23,990 bases of DNA from a virus: positions 1 to 23,990 of the IMG/VR virus record IMGVR_UViG_3300046003_007038. One strand, written 5' to 3'. Of the stretch, positions 7,195 to 20,073 are shown piece after piece. Position numbers and translations under genes: made by a program. The notes beneath the pieces were generated by a model. The model saw only the letters and a program-made list of their open reading frames with translations. It had not been told where the DNA came from and did no database searches. Position 1 is the stretch's first letter, and every line of letters begins with the position of its first letter.

Positions 7195-7734
7195 CTATCG
7201 CCTGATCAAGGATGTAAGCTCTTTGAGCTTAGCAAGATTGTTTGCTGGAGCAGACATGGTGTCAGTATTTGCAGGGGGAATAGGTGCAGCACCTGTTGCC
7301 CCAGTGTTTTTCCTACGCAAGTCTGCCATCATATCTGCTGCGGTTTTCACTGGCACTTGGCTTTCATTCTCTTCCAAGTCATAGATGCGCAGTGTTTCAA
7401 CATCATATCCCATAATGATCTTGCTGCCCACACCACTGCTGCTTCTTGTTTTCAAAAACTGGTATTGATACTGTCCACGTTCTCTCATTGCTGGTGTAGC
7501 CAAGATTGATACCACATTATCTGCTGTTTGAATCTTGCTGATACCGCCTGCAATGTGACTGTGATCATGTTCCATTTCATTGACTGAGCTGTTATGAGTT
7601 AAGATGTCATTGGCCCAAAACAATCTGTCATTGTCAACATTGATATCAATAGTGTCTTGAATTCCTAAGTACTTGATGTCTACGATCTCGTCCCAATCAA
7701 TATCTTCACTTAACTCGTCAAAAATTTCAGACAT
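7195..7734 (-). CDS. 41: Replicative DNA helicase gp41, C-terminal part with C-terminal split intein half
   Basis: The first 48 residues are the C-terminal half of a split intein: they end DRLFWANDILTHN, with the penultimate His and final Asn needed for splicing, followed by Ser as the +1 nucleophile (codon at 7588-7590). The remaining 131 residues are helicase C-extein: SSVNEMEHDHSHIAGG, then a DnaB-family motif with basic residues and glycines (KTRSSSGVG) and a low-complexity tail. Joined to the N-terminal fragment by protein trans-splicing, it gives a 468-residue hexameric helicase that unwinds the lagging-strand template at the phage fork with the primase. The start lies inside the endonuclease gene (25-nt overlap), with GAGG upstream. 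The intein half closely resembles the known gp41-8 split intein from memory. Confidence 0.92.
   Translation of the reverse strand: MSEIFDELSEDIDWDEIVDIKYLGIQDTIDINVDNDRLFWANDILTHNSSVNEMEHDHSHIAGGISKIQTADNVVSILATPAMRERGQYQYQFLKTRSSSGVGSKIIMGYDVETLRIYDLEENESQVPVKTAADMMADLRRKNTGATGAAPIPPANTDTMSAPANNLAKLKELTSLIRR
7591..7734 (-). other. C-terminal half of split intein (48 aa)
   Basis: Residues 1-48 of the helicase C fragment. Visible intein blocks: block F (INVDNDRLFWAN) and block G (ILTHN followed by Ser). It starts with its own ATG, acidic (DELSEDIDWDEIVDI), whereas the N-half is net basic; opposite charge is usual for split-intein partners that must find each other. Confidence 0.92.
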
Positions 7735-9008
7735 TGTTCCATAACCTCTTTTGTATTCTTTTTGTAGTCACTCTGCCAAATAGTCAATGTATTATAGCCT
7801 CTTGATTCATATAATTTAAGCTTGGCAGCATCTTTTTCCCATATTTCTTGTGCAGTAAGGTCCTTATTCAACGGGTTTGGCCTATCATCTGATTTATAGA
7901 CAGTTGGATTGGCATGCCAGCTATCTCCATTGAACTCAATTATTCGACCGTTATAGAAGAGATCTGGCTTGACATAGATATTCAAACCTTCAAACTCCCT
8001 GCATGAAATCCTTATTTCATTTTCCCCAAAATAATACAAATCATTTATAGTTTTAGAGAGCTCACAACATATCTCAAACGACCATTTGCTGAACCTTTTA
8101 CTACTGTTTATTGCAGACATAGTTTTTTCATATCTGTCTTGAAACATAGTTTTGCCTTCAGGTCCGTATTTCTCCAAATAATAGGCAAGCGTATTTGCAT
8201 AACCTTTTCTTTGGCAGACATCACTATATATTTTTGTACCAGTCTCTATGCCGTATCTATCAATATGTCCCTGTAGCGTTGCAATATAACCTATTCTGGC
8301 ATTGAGTTCTTTATATTTTTCTAACCCTTGTTCAAGACCATATAAACTGGTAAATTTAGCTAAATTACGTGTTGTTTTAGTTTCCTTGCAGATGATAGGG
8401 CCCATTTCTGGTCCATACTTCTCTATAAACCCTGCCAAACTATTTTTGTGACTTGAATCAGAAATTTTAGTATTGTATCGTGCTGTCCCTTCTTCTGCAC
8501 CATACAAGGCAATATAATGATCTAGTCCAGTTGACGGGTAGCAATGCCCGATTGCTTTGCGAGATTTGTAAGTATTTGATCTCTTAACACAATATTCTGC
8601 CCATTTTTGATTACCAATATCCTCGCCATACCGGTTCACATAATTCTCCAGAGATGCTCCTCTAGCAGATAATTTGCGAGTAGCTTCTTCTTGGCCATAT
8701 TTTTGTACATAATCCTCTTTGGTCTGTGTAGACGCTGCTGTCTTTTCTTCCCACAGCTCTAAACCTTTTTTCTCACCATATCGAGTAATAAATGACTTCT
8801 TTGAAGAGCTATCATGCCCAAGCTTAGTAATCTCGTCCCAGTTTTGGTGCAAGTGCCAAAAATCAAGAGTATATTTTTGGTAAATCTCAATAAGTGTAAT
8901 CAACATCCGTTTTGTGCGGCCATCATACTCGACTGAATTGAGCAATGCCTGTTTGTCCGCAGTCAAACATAAATTCCTTATTCTTTTAGAGTTGCAGATA
9001 TTCTTCAT
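7710..9008 (-). CDS. Free-standing homing endonuclease, EDxHD/Vsr-like, with YG-repeat region
   Basis: A 432-residue protein. The C-terminal 100 residues form a nuclease of the very-short-patch-repair-like fold: KPDLFYNGRIIEFNGDSWH (residues 347-365), with the acidic residues and His of the EDxHD family, then EIWEKDAAKLKLYESRGYNT and LTIWQSD. Residues 72-295 contain eight copies of a YGxExG-like module (Tyr-Gly at 77, 104, 127, 169, 198, 223, 252, 281), probably the DNA-recognition arm. It would cut intein-free helicase genes at the insertion site and so drive copying of the cassette. GAGG stands 5 nt before the ATG, and a CATAAATA late promoter lies within the last codons of the upstream intein half. 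It overlaps the helicase C fragment by 25 nt. Family assignment is firm; cleavage activity is inferred. Confidence 0.88.
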   Translation of the reverse strand: MKNICNSKRIRNLCLTADKQALLNSVEYDGRTKRMLITLIEIYQKYTLDFWHLHQNWDEITKLGHDSSSKKSFITRYGEKKGLELWEEKTAASTQTKEDYVQKYGQEEATRKLSARGASLENYVNRYGEDIGNQKWAEYCVKRSNTYKSRKAIGHCYPSTGLDHYIALYGAEEGTARYNTKISDSSHKNSLAGFIEKYGPEMGPIICKETKTTRNLAKFTSLYGLEQGLEKYKELNARIGYIATLQGHIDRYGIETGTKIYSDVCQRKGYANTLAYYLEKYGPEGKTMFQDRYEKTMSAINSSKRFSKWSFEICCELSKTINDLYYFGENEIRISCREFEGLNIYVKPDLFYNGRIIEFNGDSWHANPTVYKSDDRPNPLNKDLTAQEIWEKDAAKLKLYESRGYNTLTIWQSDYKKNTKEVMEQCLKFLTS

Positions 9009-9032
9009 ATGGTCCTCGTGTTGCCGTTAGCA

Positions 9033-10316
9033 TTATTTATGCGAACGGCAACGCAACCTATCACCAATTTTCAATCCAGATTCAAGATTTTTCAATCCGC
9101 CCTCAGTGGGAAACATATGCTTGCTACTCACCTTGATAGTCTTGCCACTTTTGGTAGTAATTTCAAACACTGCTTGTTTCACCACTGGTAGTACTTCTGT
9201 TACTCTTACTGGGCCAGATTCATTTTCAATGTAGTCTCCTACTTTCAATTGATCAATTGTTACTTTTTGGCCATTTCGAACTACTATAGTATCCAGAGTC
9301 AGACACCTTCCAAGTTGGCTCGCAGTTTGCATGATGATGTTGCGCTCTACTGCCAGTCCGCGAAGCTCCTCAGTTACAAACTTGTCCTTGATGAAAAGGT
9401 TACTAACGTCAATTCTCTTGTTGTTAGGAAACATGAGATCAAGATAATCTACCATGAGTGCATCGCATTTTTGCCCTGTCTCAATCTCATAGTTTTTCAA
9501 AAACGCTCTCAGGTCGTTAGTAGTTGTGCCTTGAGGCATCTGTTTCACATACAATGTGCCTGCACGTTTGCCTGCCTGTGCAACTTTGATCTCCACCTCA
9601 TCAATTCTCTTGAAAATTTCTGTTGTGGGAATATGCGCCACCATTGAGTCCAAGCGCATGGAGATCATTTCTTCACTCAGCTCTAGACTGATGTAGATAA
9701 CATTCAGTCCAGCCTTAACCATGTTCACTGCCATGTTTTGAAGTGTGAGACTTTTGCCACCACCTGAACCTGCACACCAAATGGTGATTTCTTTTCTGTT
9801 CACACCGCCATACAGCTTTTGGTCCACAGTTTTCCAACCAGTGCTGACCTGACCATTTGAGTTTTTGATTCGCATCAACCGCTCTCGGGGATTGAGAAAG
9901 TAGTTGGTGCCAATGTCACTAGTAAGCCCAACTAAGATAGCTTCTTTGACTCGCTTTTCCACCTCAGCATAGTTGCCTTTTTGAATCAACTCTGGTGCAC
10001 TCAGCACAGCATCTGCAATGGCTCGGTTTTTACAAAACTCTTCAATTTGATCCAGAAAAGCTTGTTGCAGTTGGGGATTGATGTTGTCAATTTTTTCAAA
10101 ATCAATACCAAATTGCGCACTCAATTGTGCTGGCTTAGGCAATGCCCTGTATTGATTTGCGAAATCAATAACAAAACGCATCACAGGTCTCAGCTTGTTC
10201 ACAAAGTATTTGGGCTGCAATATGTTTTGGCAGCGTGCATAAATCTCTTCATCACTCAACAGAACGCTTACCAGCATTTTTTGCACGTCTTCGTTGTAAT
10301 CTTTTGCTTCAGCCAA
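9033..10316 (-). CDS. 41: Replicative DNA helicase gp41, N-terminal part with N-terminal split intein half
   Basis: Residues 1-337 are the N-extein of a DnaB/gp41-family helicase: an N-terminal helical domain (primase and helicase-ring contacts), Walker A GSGGGKS near 183-189 and Walker B ALMVDYLD near 286-293. The fragment breaks after TASQLGR in the DnaB H3 motif, then 90 residues of N-intein begin with Cys 338. It cannot be active alone; trans-splicing with the fragment at 7195-7734 restores a 468-residue enzyme (T4 gp41 has about 475). Start is TTG at 10316, two bases after the primase stop, with AGGGGA 5-6 nt upstream; no usable ATG keeps the first helix. Primase and helicase are adjacent and co-transcribed, as partners of the primosome. 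Confidence 0.93.
   Translation of the reverse strand: MAEAKDYNEDVQKMLVSVLLSDEEIYARCQNILQPKYFVNKLRPVMRFVIDFANQYRALPKPAQLSAQFGIDFEKIDNINPQLQQAFLDQIEEFCKNRAIADAVLSAPELIQKGNYAEVEKRVKEAILVGLTSDIGTNYFLNPRERLMRIKNSNGQVSTGWKTVDQKLYGGVNRKEITIWCAGSGGGKSLTLQNMAVNMVKAGLNVIYISLELSEEMISMRLDSMVAHIPTTEIFKRIDEVEIKVAQAGKRAGTLYVKQMPQGTTTNDLRAFLKNYEIETGQKCDALMVDYLDLMFPNNKRIDVSNLFIKDKFVTEELRGLAVERNIIMQTASQLGRCLTLDTIVVRNGQKVTIDQLKVGDYIENESGPVRVTEVLPVVKQAVFEITTKSGKTIKVSSKHMFPTEGGLKNLESGLKIGDRLRCRSHK
9034..9041 (-). promoter_or_regulatory. Late promoter (CATAAATA) inside the end of the N-intein half
   Basis: The minus strand reads CATAAATA, formed by the last codons and stop of the N-intein (His CAT, Lys AAA, stop TAA). 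A start near 9028 would give a leader of about 20 nt to the endonuclease ATG at 9008. It would let the endonuclease be made late, apart from the early helicase message. Confidence 0.5.
9036..9305 (-). other. N-terminal half of split intein (90 aa)
   Basis: Begins CLTLDTIVVRNGQKVTI with the catalytic Cys1, has the GD-turn of block A (LKVGDYIENESGP), block B around VSSKHMFPTEGG with its His, and ends CRSHK. Length and wording are very close to the gp41-8 N-intein as I recall it (88 residues). Net charge is basic, opposite to the C-half. Confidence 0.93.
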
Positions 10317-10318
10317 GG

Positions 10319-11338
10319 TTATCCCCTAAACATTTGTCGTTTGATGCCGATCTCAACATCGTTTTTTGTGCGACTTTGAATCACACTTGTAATGGTATAG
10401 AGTTGACCATACCTCCTGCAAGCCTCAGCAGCATCTTTTACATCATCTTCCCACTCTGGGAAACTCACACTCCAGCCAAACATCAATGCTGTGTCAATCA
10501 ATTCTTGATTCTTACGCTGCCGGTCAGGCAACACTATGATCTCTTGATCCCTGGCTACCAATTGGTATATTTGCTGTTCACTAAGAGTGCTGCCCAATGC
10601 TGCAACGCCCTGTGTGGAAATAGCATCAAATCCACCCTCAACCAATATGGCAAACTTGCGTCCAGGAATATCCAGCACATCATTATTGAACAAATATCCA
10701 TCTGGTATGCTGCTGTTGAAGTAGCGAGAAGTTCCAGGCGGTGGCGAGCCTGCATATCTTGCAGTCCACCCCACAATTTGGTTATGTGAGTAAAAGGGTA
10801 TTAACACACGATTGTTCAATTGATGTTTTTTGTTGGGACTCCAATAATAATCGTAACCAGCTGCTATGTCTTGCCCACGACTTTCAATATACTCAACAAC
10901 CTTCAAAAAATCAGGGTCAAACTCAGACTCGGAAAGAAGGCTCTCTATGGGCCTTGCGCCCTCAGGCATTTCAACAGTGGGGAATTTTTGGAAACTGATC
11001 TTAACAGATTCTGGTAACGAGATCCGTCCATCCAGTTCTTTTTGTAATATTTCCATCTTCAAAGATTGAACGCTGCTTCGCGGCACGCCCAACCAGTCAA
11101 GATACTGTTCAAAACTGCTGCTTAACCTAGTGCCATCAAATCTTGTTTTGAACCCACAATTGAAACAATGGATGCCCAGTTGACCATCTTCTGAAAGTCG
11201 AAGATTTCCGCGCATGCGAGTATCAGCTTTGTGGCCTCGATGGCTGCAACAGACTGCATTGTGTATGACCCATCCTTTGGGTGTAACTCTCCGCTGAACT
11301 GGAAGATGCTGCATAATTAGTTCGTGTATCAAGCTCAT
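10319..11338 (-). CDS. 61: DNA primase, gp61-like
   Basis: A 339-residue primase, close to the 342 residues of T4 gp61. The N-terminus has a zinc-binding site: Cys30/Cys31 and His33/His36, then Cys58 and Cys61 (HCFNCGF). The middle holds the Toprim fold, FAILVEGGFDAISTQG, where Glu and the Asp are metal-binding catalytic residues. A further acidic site, IVLPDRQRKNQELI, takes the position of the second Toprim Asp. It makes short RNA primers for the lagging strand and acts with gp41 helicase in the primosome. Start ATG at 11338 follows a TATAAT at 11344-11349, without a convincing -35 element or ribosome binding site. It ends two bases before the helicase start, so both are co-expressed. Confidence 0.92.
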   Translation of the reverse strand: MSLIHELIMQHLPVQRRVTPKGWVIHNAVCCSHRGHKADTRMRGNLRLSEDGQLGIHCFNCGFKTRFDGTRLSSSFEQYLDWLGVPRSSVQSLKMEILQKELDGRISLPESVKISFQKFPTVEMPEGARPIESLLSESEFDPDFLKVVEYIESRGQDIAAGYDYYWSPNKKHQLNNRVLIPFYSHNQIVGWTARYAGSPPPGTSRYFNSSIPDGYLFNNDVLDIPGRKFAILVEGGFDAISTQGVAALGSTLSEQQIYQLVARDQEIIVLPDRQRKNQELIDTALMFGWSVSFPEWEDDVKDAAEACRRYGQLYTITSVIQSRTKNDVEIGIKRQMFRG

Positions 11339-13262: not shown

Positions 13263-13889
13263 TTATACCTGTACACTATAACTGCCATTTGCAATTAATT
13301 CAACCAGAAGGTTGAGCTGCACTTGGATAGCCACAGCGAGACTGATTGCATGTGATTTTTTGAAGCTGTAGTTTTGGTTAGGGTCAGGAGTCCAAATTTC
13401 AGGATCAAGGCTGTGCCAACCTTGATTTTGACATTTCCCAACCAAATGCCTTTTGCCAGGCCGGATCAAAGCCAAAATCATAGCCAATTGCACAGTGCTC
13501 TTGGGCTTCAAGCGGCGTACTAAATCAAAATGGTTATTGATATGGGCAAGCTGCTTAACAACTTCTTCATGTTCTAGAAGTTCCCACATTGGAGCAGTGC
13601 TCATCAACTGTGATAGATGTGCCTCACTTTGTACCCCAGCATAGATGCTGTTGTTAAGTATATCAATTTTGTAACAGTTTCTTTCTTCAGCAACATCATA
13701 AGATATGCTGCAACATTCCAAAAATGGATGTTGGGGGACGTTGTGGAAATATACACCGCTGTTGTGCAAGGAATGCTTGTTGTTCTTGACAATACTGGCG
13801 GGAATATGTGGAACTACATTGAGCAGTTTTTTCCTATCTCCAGTGTCAATGTCAATATCGCCAAGGAATGCCAATACTTTAGGTTCCAC
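13263..13889 (-). CDS. Miniature DnaE/PolC-like protein (208 aa)
   Basis: This short protein carries, in order, the conserved active-site pieces of the bacterial DNA polymerase III alpha subunit (family C). GDIDIDTGDR (residues 10-19) matches PD-D-DF--R, giving Asp11, Asp13 and Asp15; HNSGVYF matches GVHAGGVVI; CYKIDIL (72-78) matches KFDFLGL, giving the third catalytic Asp, Asp76; ILALIRPGKRHLVGK (138-152) matches ALFRPGP; and SFKKSHAISLA (175-185) matches FNKSHSAAYA. All linkers are shortened, and no PHP domain, thumb or OB domain exists. Whether it polymerises is unknown; it may act as a nucleotide- or primer-binding accessory. Start is GTG at 13889, with AGGAT 6 nt upstream. It overlaps the coiled-coil gene before it by 11 nt, in a cluster with gp62. 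Confidence 0.75.
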   Translation of the reverse strand: MEPKVLAFLGDIDIDTGDRKKLLNVVPHIPASIVKNNKHSLHNSGVYFHNVPQHPFLECCSISYDVAEERNCYKIDILNNSIYAGVQSEAHLSQLMSTAPMWELLEHEEVVKQLAHINNHFDLVRRLKPKSTVQLAMILALIRPGKRHLVGKCQNQGWHSLDPEIWTPDPNQNYSFKKSHAISLAVAIQVQLNLLVELIANGSYSVQV

Positions 13890-14193
13890 CTGTTATCCTA
13901 TCCATTTGTTTTGACAACGTGTCTACTTTTTGTGTCAGCTTTGTTAGACTATTGTTAGCTCTGATAAGACGATTATGTAAATCAATACAGGTTTGTGATG
14001 TTTGAATAATTTTTCGTTCAAGATCTTCAATCCATTGAGGATCAACCATCACAACCTTTTTGCCATCAACTTCCAAACTTTGTAATTTGCCAAGGCTTGT
14101 TAAGCTTACCTTGCTCTTGCTGATCAAGGTGGGCTGCGCAGCAGGTTCCATTTCCTCGTTTCCATACATATCTAGATTCAAACGATCACTCAT
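13879..14193 (-). CDS. Small coiled-coil phage protein (104 aa)
   Basis: The start MSDRLNLDMYGNEEMEPAAQ is followed by a beta-type hinge (SLEVDGKKVVMVDPQWIEDL) and a C-terminal coiled coil (residues 55-100: heptad-like IEDLERKIIQTSQ, then LIRANNSLTKLTQKVDTLSK). The likely outcome is an oligomeric adapter. TAGGA lies 8 nt before the ATG. The stop overlaps the GTG start of the DnaE-like gene, so both are probably made together, and it follows the zinc-finger gene by 9 nt. I do not recognise a family; a partner protein for the neighbouring DnaE-like protein is an inference from coupling. Confidence 0.75.
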   Translation of the reverse strand: MSDRLNLDMYGNEEMEPAAQPTLISKSKVSLTSLGKLQSLEVDGKKVVMVDPQWIEDLERKIIQTSQTCIDLHNRLIRANNSLTKLTQKVDTLSKQMDRITGGT

Positions 14194-14202
14194 GCATTTT
14201 TC

Positions 14203-14952
14203 CTACATTCCAGCTTCTGTCAACACACTTTTGATTAAATCAGCCTGTTGTTTATAACGGAGCAGTCTTACCTTCCATTTTTTCACTGGCGCAACCGTTT
14301 GTATCAAATACAGTTGCTCAGGATTACATCTTTCAAAAAATTCCACTGCGCTGTTACAATTATATAGCATCCAAGGGCTGATTTTGCCTTGTGATATCCA
14401 TCGAGTAGCTAAGTTTGGATTTACCTTTATCCAAAAGTCTTGCATAGGCAAGTCTTGCTCTTCAGTCCATTTTTGAACTGTGCGCAAGCTTCTCTGCAAT
14501 CCCATTTCAGGGGTTTCATCATGCAACAGCTCACTCAAAAAGCTGTTGTATAACAGCACATCACTCCATTTTTTGAAATCAGCTTTTTGTTTCAATAACC
14601 ACCGCACATATGTTTCAATCTCCTGAACTTGCTGCTCAATCAACCAATTGCCAAAGCGCACAAACTCAGTGTAATGCCTACTAACACAAAACTCTTGATA
14701 ACTTTTGCTCTTGAGTGTTGTATTTTTCGGTGCTGTGCCTTCATTAAACAATAGATATGATGCATACCCCAGCTTGACATCTGGATTGTATTGGGCTTCA
14801 CTCCTGCGCCTTGGTTCGCAACTGTGGGAAACCAAGGTTGCTTCTTTGGCAAATGCTTTTTGACACCAAGTGCAGAAGTGGGGCCGATTTAAATCAATCG
14901 CCTTTGGCAGCTTTTTTGAGTTCGTCTTTGAGCTCTTTGATACCACGGTCAT
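14203..14952 (-). CDS. Zinc-finger phage protein of unknown function (start uncertain)
   Basis: Near the N-terminus is a compact zinc-binding motif, PHFCTWCQKAFAKEATLVSH then SC: Cys-x2-Cys, and His-x-Cys 12 residues later, C2H2/C2HC-like. A basic patch (CEPRRRSE) follows, then a long helical body of about 200 residues with many Trp (VQKWTEEQDLPMQDFWIKVN, ISPWMLYNCNSAVEF). From memory, similar proteins occur in T4-like cyanophages near the clamp loader, unnamed. The nearest in-frame ATG (14952) overlaps the gp62-like gene by 59 nt; a start at the ATT or CTG codons near 14898-14910, next to the gp62 stop, would fit the gene packing better. It probably binds DNA or RNA at the phage fork; not proven. 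Confidence 0.8.
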   Translation of the reverse strand: MTVVSKSSKTNSKKLPKAIDLNRPHFCTWCQKAFAKEATLVSHSCEPRRRSEAQYNPDVKLGYASYLLFNEGTAPKNTTLKSKSYQEFCVSRHYTEFVRFGNWLIEQQVQEIETYVRWLLKQKADFKKWSDVLLYNSFLSELLHDETPEMGLQRSLRTVQKWTEEQDLPMQDFWIKVNPNLATRWISQGKISPWMLYNCNSAVEFFERCNPEQLYLIQTVAPVKKWKVRLLRYKQQADLIKSVLTEAGM

Positions 14953-15409
14953 CCATTCCACTGTATTTGGCAATTTCCATCAACTCTTCATCACTGTGAT
15001 TGGTTTTCAAAATCATCATCTCTGCTTCATTTACATCACCATACAATTGAGTCAGCAAAGCCTCTGTCTTGGGTGTCTTGGAAGCTGTAGACTTGGTGCT
15101 GATCCACTGATGGTACTGTTTTTTCCCCACACCAGCAACACACATCAGCAAGTATTGCAGTTCTGGATGTTTGCCTAAATTCCATAAGCCATTGTTCACA
15201 AGATCATTAGCTGCCAGTACAAAATATTCTTTGTAGGGATTTGAGTCTGGGACGGCAGAAAGCCAGCGAACTACAACTTTCGGTACAAAGCCCTTGCGCT
15301 CTTCTTCAGTTAAATTTGCATAAAATCCGCGATCCTTTTTGTCAATAGCCTCCAGCAGTACCATAAGGTCCAGTTTGAAGCTTCTTTTTGCTGTTGCTGC
15401 TTTTGCCAT
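14894..15409 (-). CDS. 62: Probable sliding-clamp loader small subunit, gp62-like
   Basis: A 171-residue protein, near the 187 of T4 gp62. After a short basic start it has a helical body: FVPKVVVRWLSAVPDSNPYK, YFVLAANDLVNNGLW, LQYLLMCVAGVGKKQYHQWI, and ends with a helical Lys/Glu tail (DDRGIKELKDELKKAAKGD). The pattern of a 'V-R-LS' helix, a leucine-rich repeat-like stretch and a basic 'KK--HQW' segment matches gp62 proteins of cyanophages as I remember them. gp62 joins four gp44 ATPases to load the gp45 clamp. AAGGA lies 8 nt before the ATG, and a sigma-70-type promoter is upstream. gp44 is not in the window. The identity is likely but not certain; a short helical protein of other function is possible. 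Confidence 0.6.
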   Translation of the reverse strand: MAKAATAKRSFKLDLMVLLEAIDKKDRGFYANLTEEERKGFVPKVVVRWLSAVPDSNPYKEYFVLAANDLVNNGLWNLGKHPELQYLLMCVAGVGKKQYHQWISTKSTASKTPKTEALLTQLYGDVNEAEMMILKTNHSDEELMEIAKYSGMDDRGIKELKDELKKAAKGD

Positions 15410-16572: not shown

Positions 16573-18015
16573 CTACCAGGTAATATAGGCTTGGGCGATG
16601 CTGTCACGCAGTTGACTTGTGTCCACATCAACCATCTGATCTGGCATATAGCTGCTGGGCCCCTGCCGCATAGTGACTGCATCCACATACATTGAAAATT
16701 TACCCTCTTCGGCAGTTTTCAACACGCTGGGAATCTCCAGTTCCTGCAGGATTGGGTCAAACTGTTGCACAAAAGCCGTATCCACTCCCAGCATACTGAA
16801 TCTGGCGTTGTAGTGGGCCTGGCCTTTTTCCTGCCGAAGTCGCAGAACCAAGTCCAACCCAGTGAGATCGTGGGGGGCGAAGTTTTCACCAAATCCCACA
16901 TTTTTGTAGCCGAGTAGAAGAACGTTCACACCTTCCTGCCAGCAACGTTCCAGGAGTTCTGCTGTTTCAGCAAGGTCCACACTGCCAACCACATGCTGAG
17001 CCATAATGGAGGGCAGTTTCCACCACTTCTCGCCCTGACTCTTCATGTGATTGTCTAGGTTACTCCTAATCTTGGAGATTTTGTTCAAGTCTTTGGCATT
17101 GTGAACACTCACACCAATAGCACCAGCATGGTTCACTACAGCCAATGCCTTCTCCCGATCCAAACTCCACTTAACACCAAAAGTAGTGAAGTTTGGTACA
17201 ATGTTCTTACTTGCGGTGTACTGAATGATCTCTGCGAAATTGGGGTGGTCAGTTGTCTCCCCGCCACCATAAGCAATTTCAAACACTCCCATCCGACTAA
17301 ACGTATCAACCAAATTGAGAACTTCCTTCAGTTGTGCATGCTTGCCTTCTGGGGTGCTGCCCTGATAACACCAATTACATTTGTAAAGGCAGTGGTCGGT
17401 CAGCTTAACGTCGACGAGCTCAGGATAAGTGCTCTTGACGTAAGGAAGAGCGTCATCTTGCATGCTGAGCCGCACCTTGTGCCCACTGCTGGGGCTGAAC
17501 AAGGTCCAATAATCCCCATCCTGGCGAATGCGCTTTTCGCCCGAGTGTTGGATAGCCGCAGTGATGTCGTTCTCAAAGCTGCCGTCTGGGGGTGTTTGCC
17601 CATCGCTGTTGTCGTTCCCGCCGAGGATAACAACATCATCGCGCATCACATACTGGTAGAGGCTCTTGACAAATCCACCATCAACAGGATCTGAGCTTGA
17701 GAAAATTCCCCAAATGCTTTGATGGTCCACACCATAGCTGCAAAAAGTGTCTGCTGTGTAGTTTGTGCCAAGCCAGCTGTTCATCAACTGAACAGCGGTT
17801 TCCCCTGACACATTTTCCCTATCCAGAGCATGGTATAGCTGGGTGGCAAAATACGCCGACTTGCTTTCTTGATCAGCCAGGGTGAACTGTTCCCAACCAT
17901 ATTCAAAGCGGTTGTGCTCATCTGTGCCAACCCGCATTCCGGCCGGAATCATCACAATGCTGTGACTACTACTGCTGTTGGTAGCAAAGCCAGCCCGAAC
18001 GTTGAAAATCTTCAC
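16573..18015 (-). CDS. Radical SAM protein with N-terminal NSSSSHS motif (480 aa)
   Basis: From the GTG at 18015 the protein starts (M)KIFNVRAGFATNSSSSHS, the amino-terminal form found in many phage and bacterial proteins of unknown role (MKIRNGFVSNSSSS type). The rest of the N-terminal half (to about 190) is an unassigned domain. The C-terminal half is a radical SAM core: DHCLYKCNWCYQGS with Cys209, Cys213 and Cys216 (CxxxCxxC) for a 4Fe-4S cluster, and YGGGETTDHP (GGE, SAM binding). The substrate is not readable; no auxiliary cluster is obvious. The GTG is favoured over the upstream ATG (18042) because GAGAGAGG lies 5 nt before it and the promoter's -10 element covers the ATG. Radical SAM enzymes modify proteins, RNA or small molecules. 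No RiPP precursor gene is visible nearby. Confidence 0.85.
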   Translation of the reverse strand: MKIFNVRAGFATNSSSSHSIVMIPAGMRVGTDEHNRFEYGWEQFTLADQESKSAYFATQLYHALDRENVSGETAVQLMNSWLGTNYTADTFCSYGVDHQSIWGIFSSSDPVDGGFVKSLYQYVMRDDVVILGGNDNSDGQTPPDGSFENDITAAIQHSGEKRIRQDGDYWTLFSPSSGHKVRLSMQDDALPYVKSTYPELVDVKLTDHCLYKCNWCYQGSTPEGKHAQLKEVLNLVDTFSRMGVFEIAYGGGETTDHPNFAEIIQYTASKNIVPNFTTFGVKWSLDREKALAVVNHAGAIGVSVHNAKDLNKISKIRSNLDNHMKSQGEKWWKLPSIMAQHVVGSVDLAETAELLERCWQEGVNVLLLGYKNVGFGENFAPHDLTGLDLVLRLRQEKGQAHYNARFSMLGVDTAFVQQFDPILQELEIPSVLKTAEEGKFSMYVDAVTMRQGPSSYMPDQMVDVDTSQLRDSIAQAYITW

Positions 18016-18022
18016 AGCAACC

Positions 18023-18068
18023 TCTCTCGTGTGTTCAGCCATTATACACACGAGAGAAAATACGTCAA
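18023..18068 (-). promoter_or_regulatory. Sigma-70 promoter inside a 12-bp palindrome (radical SAM gene)
   Basis: On the minus strand TTGACG (18068-18063), 16 bp, TATAAT (18046-18041). TCTCTCGTGTGT (18023-18034) and ACACACGAGAGA (18046-18057) form a perfect 12-bp inverted repeat with 11 bp between; the -10 element lies in and beside its centre. The transcript would start near 18033 and its ribosome binding site (GAGAGAGG, 18021-18028) lies at the edge of the downstream arm. A repressor bound here would block RNA polymerase; the arm in RNA could also hide the binding site. Confidence 0.8.
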
Positions 18069-18615: not shown

Positions 18616-20073
18616 CTAGTAACGGATTTTTTTCACCTCAAAAGGGTATTCACTTGTTTTGTAAAACTGTTTGCGTTTGTTAAGATGGCTGTTACTGAAC
18701 TTCATCTTGCTGCTGATGTCATAAATTTGAACACTGCTCTTGTCATCTGCCATTCGTAATCCACGCCCAATGCTTTGAATAGTTCTTACAAAACTTTTGC
18801 CTGCTTCAACCAATACTAGATTGAAGATTCTGTTGATTGAAATACCTGTTGACGTGGTGCCATATGTGGCTACCATTATTTTATTATCGCTGAAATTGAT
18901 CTCTTTGTAATGCTCTCTACGATCTTTGGCACTCATTTCTCCTGAGATGAATACTGCTCCACTTAGTTGATTATAGAGTTTTTGTCCAGTTTCAATACGG
19001 TCAACAAGAACAAGTGTGTTTCCTGACTCAGCTATTGTCTCGATAGTTTGTGCCATCCATTGCAGCCTCTGATCATTTGTGACCAAAAACTTCAACTCTT
19101 CCTGGTAGTTTCCATATTGGAATGTTTCTTGTGTTTGTAAGCATGTTACATCACACTGTGCCAGCACTCCTTTGTCTTGCAGTTCTTTGGCAGTAAGGCT
19201 TCCAATTTGCGGCCCAATAGCAGTAAACAAACCCACTTGTTTGTATTCTTCCTCAGGAACGGTGCCAGTCAGTCCCCAACGAATGGGAATGTTTTTGAAC
19301 ACGCTTGTGAGTAATTGATGTAACACATTTAAATCTTTTACTCCATGGCACTCATCACAAATCACACACACCAAATCTTTCAAAAATGTCTCTAACTGAT
19401 CTCCATCAAGAGAGTCTTTGTTCTTTTTGTCTAGAACATTCAAGCTCTGCCATGTGCAGATAGTGTGTTTGCAGGTGTACTCTTTTCGATCACCAAACAA
19501 TACCCCTACATCAAGACCAATATTTCGATAATCTTCTTCTGTCTGTTGCACAAGATTCTTGTTAGGAACAATAACGATAGTTCGTCCACGCTCTTCAACA
19601 ATTTTTGAAAGTGTGGCTGTTACAATAGTTTTGCCAGCTGAAGTGGGTAGTACATTGACCCCTTGTGGGTTTTGGAGACAGAGATTGATGGCGTCTACTT
19701 GATAGTCTCGCAATTGAATTGGTTGACCAGCAAATCGATGCCCTGCAGGCCAAGTCAAAGGACTTAGAAAATTCTCATCAATTGATGGAAAGCTGATGTT
19801 GTGAAATGCACGTTGATCGTCAATCTCAAACTCATAACCATGTTCTTGTAAAACAGGTAATAGTCGATCCAGAATGTTGAGATAGGTTTTGCCTCCAAGA
19901 GTACAAAAGCTGGTGCAGCCGTCCCATCGTCCCATTTTGAAAGCGGGACTATACCGAGCTGATGGCAAGAAGTATTTGACAGAATTAACCAATGCTCTCT
20001 TGACAGGTAGGTCGATCCCTGTGATTTGAATGTTTACCTCGTCTTGAATAATTATCTTTGCAACTTTGCTCAT
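18616..20073 (-). CDS. uvsW: UvsW-like DNA/RNA helicase
   Basis: A 485-residue superfamily 2 helicase. The first 100 residues form the UvsW-type N-terminal domain (RYSPAFKMGRWDGCTSFCTL). Motifs follow in order: LRDYQVDAIN (Q-like), PTSAGKT (Walker A, 143-149), IVPNKNLVQQ (Ia), ICDECHG (DECH box, about 238-244), GLTGTVPEEE (III), and QSIGRGLRM (VI). In T4, UvsW unwinds D-loops, R-loops and branched DNA, ends origin-dependent initiation and supports recombination-driven replication and fork rescue. Length and order match T4 UvsW (about 500 residues). ATG at 20073 is preceded by GGAAAC and a sigma-70-type promoter. Next to the kinase pair, which is divergent. Confidence 0.92.
   Translation of the reverse strand: MSKVAKIIIQDEVNIQITGIDLPVKRALVNSVKYFLPSARYSPAFKMGRWDGCTSFCTLGGKTYLNILDRLLPVLQEHGYEFEIDDQRAFHNISFPSIDENFLSPLTWPAGHRFAGQPIQLRDYQVDAINLCLQNPQGVNVLPTSAGKTIVTATLSKIVEERGRTIVIVPNKNLVQQTEEDYRNIGLDVGVLFGDRKEYTCKHTICTWQSLNVLDKKNKDSLDGDQLETFLKDLVCVICDECHGVKDLNVLHQLLTSVFKNIPIRWGLTGTVPEEEYKQVGLFTAIGPQIGSLTAKELQDKGVLAQCDVTCLQTQETFQYGNYQEELKFLVTNDQRLQWMAQTIETIAESGNTLVLVDRIETGQKLYNQLSGAVFISGEMSAKDRREHYKEINFSDNKIMVATYGTTSTGISINRIFNLVLVEAGKSFVRTIQSIGRGLRMADDKSSVQIYDISSKMKFSNSHLNKRKQFYKTSEYPFEVKKIRY

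Follow-up and report, generated by a model that had tools for sequence, protein, structure and literature searches.

The 208-residue open reading frame at positions 13263–13889 probably encodes one subunit, the C-terminal one, of a minimal DNA polymerase of family C that is built from two chains and is kept by the phage beside its family B replicase. The window, by which we mean the whole stretch of viral DNA that was analysed, is 23,990 nucleotides long (IMG/VR record IMGVR_UViG_3300046003_007038). The reading frame lies on the minus strand with a GTG start at 13889, and its product (the C-half) consists of the part of the palm that carries the catalytic aspartates, followed by trimmed fingers. 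The protein matches the family phrog_11778, labelled "DNA polymerase", with an E-value of 8.2e-60.

Homologues were found by tblastn in 63 of 50,697 phage records; all of these matches cover at least 80% of the protein length, and the identity is always below 60%. The carriers include RaK2, GAP32, 121Q/PBECO4, PA5oct, Atu_ph07, Phosso, SCTP-2, XacN1 and their relatives. An alignment-based scan confirms the C-half in 593 of 600 IMG/VR stretches, a lower bound; in the scans with alignments 80 loci were kept for this half and 80 for the N-terminal half described below, both counts being lower bounds. In the family alignment, from which closer contigs were left out, the window protein shares 36–58% identity with each of the 61 remaining rows. 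Two of its homologues (L008 and L009) are 87–89% identical to it. Comparison with these by the NG86 method, over 201 codons in each case, gives dN values of 0.086 and 0.096 and dS values of 1.55 and 1.47, the latter near saturation. Since dN is low relative to a dS of about 1.5, this is a maintained gene under purifying selection.

The motifs of the window protein are GDIDID (D11, D13, D15), HNSGVYF (H42, G45), KIDIL (K74, D76), ALIRPGK (R143–K146) and FKKSH (176–180). The gene and its motifs are located as follows.

13263–13889, minus strand: putative C-half of a minimal, split polymerase of family C (phrog_11778, motifs and structure model)
13845–13859, minus strand: DIDID, Asp11/Asp13/Asp15, corresponding to D401/D403/D405 of E. 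coli DnaE; identical in 121 of 121 sequences
13755–13766, minus strand: HNSG (H42, G45), a palm motif resembling KHAGGV of DnaE; 121 of 121, equivalence by motif order
13662–13670, minus strand: KID, Lys74 and Asp76, corresponding to K553 and D555 of DnaE in the hhalign alignment; 121 of 121
13452–13463, minus strand: RPGK (R143, P144, K146), a finger motif that is RPGP in DnaE; 121 of 121
13350–13364, minus strand: FKKSH, a finger motif matching FNKSH (756–760) of DnaE; H180 in 121 of 121

A first-pass annotation of the window had listed the D-D-D triad, HNSGVYF, KIDIL, ALIRPG and FKKSH in the order found in DnaE and PolC; all are present, and they are collinear with Pol III alpha. In E. coli DnaE, PDFDVDF occupies residues 400–406 and KFDFLGL begins at 553, with KFD at 553–555; therefore Asp11, Asp13 and Asp76 of the window, which the annotation took for the catalytic aspartates, are equivalent to D401, D403 and D555. 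Besides the positions in the list, L78, L95, W102 and A140 are invariant in all 121 C-half sequences. This set comprises 120 loci and the window, with none dropped, and includes near-identical contigs and three loci that were fetched twice. The patterns used to retrieve C-halves contained IRP and K-K-x-H, so that conservation at these positions is partly built in. D11, D13, D15, K74 and D76 lie outside the main IMG/VR retrieval patterns; a separate search, which brought 30 of the loci, had DIDIDTGD and ERNCYKID among its six patterns.

The order of the motifs, judged from sequence, is beyond chance. A 62-row family profile run against 177,635 distinct PDB sequences returned nine matches at E≤10, and all nine are Pol III alpha, which bears out the predicted family C relationship. 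The best E-value is 0.019; no single stretch is significant, and the matching stretches (around PDIDID, the RPG helix and the F-K-S-H motif) are collinear. The Pfam family DNA_pol3_finger is matched by 11 of 17 family members at E≤1, with a best value of 3.3e-5, while the window protein alone remains below threshold (E 0.18) and gives only chance matches in a single-sequence PDB search. Alignment of the C-half profile with the single E. coli DnaE sequence by hhalign is weak, with a probability of 9% and an E-value of 0.0036. The record of phage fENko-Kae01 also remarks on an HHpred similarity of its C-half to E. coli Pol III alpha.

Predicted fold and missing elements

A structure model of the C-half was predicted from a 53-row alignment, with a mean pLDDT of 91.7 and a pTM of 0.77. 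Residues 3–208 of the model superpose on residues 394–802 of E. coli DnaE (PDB ID: 2hnh) with a Z-score of 9.7 and an rmsd of 4.4 over 198 aligned positions. The 13 best structural matches are all of the DnaE/PolC type, with Z-scores of 6.6–9.7 (one of them, 9qpc, is titled only 'DNA polymerase with inhibitor'), whereas the best unrelated chain reaches 2.8. In a Foldseek search Pol III chains occupy ranks 1–14, the best with an E-value of 1.4e-3 and none under 0.001. The structure prediction thus upholds the fold that had been expected from the motifs. As modelled, the C-half chain shows the fold and the motifs of DnaE 394–802, including the metal-binding aspartates, RPG and FxKSH; the long C-terminal helix of the fingers is also kept. 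The earlier description of a stripped-down, miniature palm holds in that this is a family C palm with fingers, but the chain is not self-contained, as it covers DnaE 394–802 only.

The spacing between the motifs is shorter throughout than in E. coli DnaE, as the annotation had noted: 65 residues against 154 from D11 to D76, 67 against 84 from D76 to R143, and 33 against 117 from R143 to F176. The family medians are 65, 67 and 29 (from 117, 117 and 112 of the 120 ORFs, respectively), and the median distance from RPG to FxKSH is 88 residues less than in E. coli. The position of the thumb we take to be the palm insertion between the second and third catalytic aspartates; since the median distance from the first to the third aspartate is 65 residues, compared with 154, the C-half has no room for a thumb. 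The LRRAMGKK motif of the fingers (R709/R710 in E. coli), whose arginines contact the incoming triphosphate, occurs in none of the 120 C-half ORFs, and because this segment is missing, catalysis by the split polymerase may be weak or different.

Three further parts of Pol III alpha lie outside this chain. The Pfam lists at E≤1 contain no PHP family for either half; the finger domain is reported for C-halves, and all 42 N-halves match PF07733. Nothing in the match of the C-half model corresponds to the part of DnaE past residue 802, where the clamp-binding motif QADMF lies at 920. The nucleotide-binding part with the GRGS motif is likewise not in the C-half, which starts at the equivalent of DnaE 394.

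The N-terminal partner and the position of the cut

In ten of ten complete named phages a second short ORF matches the first ~80–100 positions of the Pfam family DNA_pol3_alpha (PF07733), and no further match to that family is reported in these ten genomes. The profile of this N-half also matches fENko-Kae01 and, more weakly (E 2.6e-19), Slicko01. A separate N-terminal gene was found in all 12 named relatives that were searched whole, at 11 to 224 kb from the C-half; by record coordinates the halves are 14 to 224 kb apart in ten phages, and 11 kb apart in Slicko01. Neither a fused nor an adjacent pair occurs among the 120 C-half and 93 N-half loci.

Both halves are present in 61 of the 63 phage records with a C-half, which are all those checked for the pair; the remaining two are PP728206 and OQ508957. 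Of the 63, 58 appear in the list of 60 N-half records obtained by tblastn, and three more were found by other searches; two of the listed records, from a Staphylococcus and a Tenacibaculum phage, have no C-half match. Some of the N-half records outside the checked pairs (these two and 26 unlisted) may be full-length Pol III. Among 14 IMG/VR contigs chosen for their N-half the C-half was found in seven, six of which exceed 200 kb.

The N-half is ~175 residues long, mostly about 160–185. Its model has a pLDDT of 93, and residues 79–178 superpose on residues 278–393 of 2hnh with a Z-score of 9.4; the best match is 5lew (Z 11.5), and the best unrelated one scores 2.5. Alignment with DnaE 274–395 by hhalign gives an E-value of 5.5e-7. 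The ~78 N-terminal residues do not align with DnaE. The chain carries GxGRGS. All 93 N-half ORFs (two of them re-fetched) have GRGS, conservation that is partly built in, GRGSS being in the retrieval pattern. In the alignments alone, the arginine of 'ERFL' in DnaE (R390) is matched by a glutamate in the N-half profile. All 32 N-halves compared match phrog_11127; this family and phrog_11778 are both labelled 'DNA polymerase', and the labels are silent on their being two halves of one core.

Eighty of the 93 N-half ORFs end exactly 29 residues past GRGS, which corresponds to DnaE residue 393, and the other 13 end at 30–35 residues. The two chains meet at DnaE 393/394 without overlap, and there is one cut site throughout the set.

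The surroundings of the N-half are conserved as well. Within flanks of at most 3 kb, a GroES-like gene lies downstream on the same strand at 76 of 81 loci (L059–L138, L221, L273–L276 and L278 being the loci used for neighbours) and the clamp-loader gene 44 at 59 of 81; where gene 44 is lacking, 11 of the 22 loci offer less than 2.3 kb of sequence downstream of the N-half. In Phosso, RaK2 and PA5oct the N-half and the GroES-like gene are separated by one small gene. The records of RaK2, SCTP-2 and XacN1 annotate a clamp-loader gene downstream of the N-half, and that of Phosso an AAA-ATPase.

Genomic setting of the C-half

The C-half lies in a block of replication genes, of which the window contains the following.

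10319–11338, minus strand: DNA primase, gp61-like (phrog_47, E 2.6e-31); relatives in 103 of 121 C-half loci
18616–20073, minus strand: UvsW-like helicase, a conserved neighbour (phrog_16, E 1.1e-70)
14203–14973, minus strand: conserved neighbour with no function assigned (phrog_11058); relatives in 99 of 121 loci
14894–15409, minus strand: conserved neighbour with no function assigned (phrog_11758); relatives in 88 of 121 loci
9033–10316, minus strand: N part of the replicative helicase (DnaB/gp41) with the N part of an intein (Pfam)
7195–7734, minus strand: C part of the intein with the C part of the helicase (Pfam)

These neighbour counts are lower bounds, as many loci are cut by contig ends, and the 121 loci include repeats. 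The C-half lies between UvsW and the primase–helicase pair in 8 of 11 named phages examined; it has other surroundings in XacN1 and RAS14, and in Slicko01 the helicase is kept and a clamp-loader gene (RFC small subunit) lies 1.4 kb upstream.

Three neighbours had been named in the first-pass annotation. The likeliest candidate for gp62, the product of 14894–15409, matches neither a Pfam family nor T4 gp62 in the PDB, and hhalign to T4 gp62 gives a probability of 0.1%; it belongs to phrog_11758, and its identification as gp62 is not supported. As for a zinc finger, a C-x2-C...H-x-C pattern is visible near the start of 14203–14973 but lacks Pfam support. For the coiled-coil gene at 13879–14193, the matches to coiled-coil families are all below the cut-off.

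The helicase of the window is itself interrupted. At 7195–10316 (minus strand) the gp41/DnaB gene carries a split intein, with an endonuclease-like ORF at 7710–9008 between its two parts; both the intein and the endonuclease are matched weakly by Pfam (E 0.006–0.043). In a close relative, G001, which is 97–99% identical around the site, the helicase is encoded by an ORF of 468 aa that is uninterrupted at this position (QLGR/SAVNEMEHDHSH). As read from the two sequences, the helicases form an intein-plus/intein-minus pair in near-identical phages. The replication region of the window also encodes a radical SAM protein (16573–18051; PF04055, E 2.7e-11) with a long N-terminal extension.

The 24 kb of the window contain no family B polymerase. 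G001 (328.6 kb), which is 97–99% identical to nearly all of the window, holds both the C-half and a family B polymerase (PF00136, E 4.1e-29) with an exonuclease domain; the view of the source as a T4-like phage whose main polymerase is of family B is thereby supported. Family B polymerases were present in 11 of 11 records tested, none of which has a family A enzyme, and in 10 of 12 of a second set, the two misses being contigs of 199 and 216 kb. Of the carriers of both halves, 17 of 17 tested have one (ten named phages, Slicko01, G027 and G033–G037; fENko-Kae01, G038 and G045 are outside this count). An exonuclease domain is present in five of five family B enzymes examined. The Alishewanella phage Slicko01 (L240; 141,431 bp, circular) contains both halves and a family B polymerase, the latter in two open frames of 578 and 322 aa.

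A stand-alone DnaQ-like exonuclease is encoded within 5 kb of the C-half in RaK2, GAP32 and XacN1 (L033, L035 and L039). The family B polymerases of RaK2 and XacN1 keep their own exonuclease domain. The DnaQ-like protein is a possible proofreading partner of the small polymerase.

For the window's own phage no N-half was found. It was detected in none of 27 records (the window and 26 IMG/VR contigs with a C-half, mostly short), in one of six large C-half contigs, and not in G001 even with a larger profile; sensitive HMM searches of G001, G029 and G031 gave weak, meaningless matches (best E 0.037). Because gene 44 is also undetected in these three contigs, the absence of the N-half from G001 is likely to reflect missing sequence, that is, a gap in the contig. 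In Phosso and PA5oct the N-half is 3–5 kb away from PhoH; in G001, one contig end is reached ~9 kb from PhoH. Loss of the N-half in the clade is not concluded, the adjoining gene 44 being missing from the same contigs, and interruption by an intein was set aside as no convincing partial match to the N-half was seen in G001, G029 or G031. The start of G001 (L222:18–980) is occupied by an ORF with a long Gly-Pro-Val repeat; the next ORF, of 2512 aa, contains a collagen-like stretch that resembles it.

Proposed role and relation to known systems

The Pol III alpha of bacteria is a large enzyme with many domains. The phage proteins share with DnaE and PolC the fold, the catalytic aspartates and the order of KxD, RPG and FxKSH; they differ in being two chains of ~385 residues in total, compared with 1160 in E. 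coli DnaE, and in having no PHP domain, thumb or clamp-binding region. The relatives of T4 gp43 in the same genomes are the main replicase, and the window ORF is not a fragment of gp43, whose palm fold is unrelated to that of family C.

In the proposed arrangement a separate N chain, equivalent to DnaE ~278–393 with the GRGS loop as in the relatives, would be made in the window's phage as well. The N and C chains would bind each other and rebuild one active site, in which the N chain would hold the phosphates of the dNTP, and the C chain the metals, the template and the primer end. Linkage of the N gene to gene 44, and of the C gene to the UvsW–primase–helicase block, suggests that the pair works on DNA already loaded with clamps at the replication fork of the phage. 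Most likely it would extend primers or fill gaps alongside gp43, either in lagging-strand synthesis or during recombination repair; the choice among these is a guess.

A more specific version, which we offer tentatively and regard as unlikely, is that the two chains, ~385 residues together, make up an active polymerase that lacks thumb, PHP and LRRAMGKK. The incoming nucleotide would be gripped by GRGS of one chain and by the invariant RPxK of its partner. The enzyme would come to the fork together with the clamp loader, a product of the same gene cluster, and would take the primers made by the phage primase before gp43 does, in the manner of a separate primer-extension polymerase.

It is unlikely that the protein is instead a catalytically inactive remnant of family C serving as a structural or regulatory part of the replisome, for example as a scaffold between the clamp loader and the helicase–primase. 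The absence of PHP, the thumb and the LRRAMGKK part of the fingers would suit such a remnant, as would the full family B polymerase with exonuclease that the phage already owns. However, a scaffold would be expected to lose some of the catalytic residues, and D11, D13, K74 and D76 are invariant in the 121 sequences; GRGS is equally constant in the N-half ORFs, though most of these were retrieved with a pattern that contained it.

The same two halves might also form a non-replicative nucleotidyltransferase, such as an end-tailing or primer-modifying enzyme, a reading that we consider improbable. With too little space for a thumb, and with RPG and FxKSH a median of 29 residues apart, what remains is the nucleotidyltransferase core; but RPG, FxKSH and the long C-terminal finger helix are all retained, and the genes sit among fork proteins.

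That the fragment is a decoy or inhibitor of host Pol III, mimicking DnaE to capture its partners, agrees with its homology and phage origin but is highly improbable, as the clamp-binding region is absent from a model that matches 394–802 only, the catalytic positions are among the best conserved, and the gene co-occurs with the N-half in a replication block. Both this and the lone nucleotide binder proposed in the first-pass annotation give way to a subunit of a two-chain enzyme, which is more likely because the GRGS part is a separate gene in the relatives.

The two-chain type of Pol III alpha has been published. Iyer et al. (2021; PMC7824862) describe a split minimal Pol III alpha in group 2.2 jumbo phages, predicted in 2021 and composed of an N-terminal NTP-binding protein and a C-terminal Mg2+- and template-binding protein, encoded by distant genes, with a family B polymerase alongside. 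The system described here is alike in its two-protein layout, in the distance between the genes (in the relatives) and in the company of family B, and Atu_ph07, which that paper names in group 2.2, holds both halves in our searches; it is unlike in that the window C-half comes from a metagenomic relative. Relative to the passages of that paper used for comparison, what is new is the exact cut at 393/394, the linkage of the N-half to the GroES-like gene and the clamp-loader gene 44, a carrier of 141 kb outside the jumbo class, and the loss of the LRRAMGKK finger segment. Two other papers touch on the subject: the Pfam domain of the N-half is given for 51.9% of one marine jumbo phage group (PMC9123017), and two 'DNA polymerase III subunits' are mentioned in a Sinorhizobium phage (PMC11242549). 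In the portion of the open-access literature that was available, no biochemical or genetic test of the split Pol III alpha was found, and in a 2026 review of jumbo phages the terms polymerase III, Pol III, family B and DNA polymerase are all absent.

The finding of a conserved two-gene catalytic core in phages that also bear a family B polymerase has a bearing on why a virus keeps two unrelated polymerases. For asking how little of Pol III alpha can make DNA, the pair provides a natural minimal enzyme; the genes are small, so that the question is directly testable, and the exact split and the linkage to gene 44 give concrete predictions of binding partners. If the pair is indeed an active, thumbless, two-chain polymerase, it would be the smallest family C core that we know of, and would offer a living model for how family C began.
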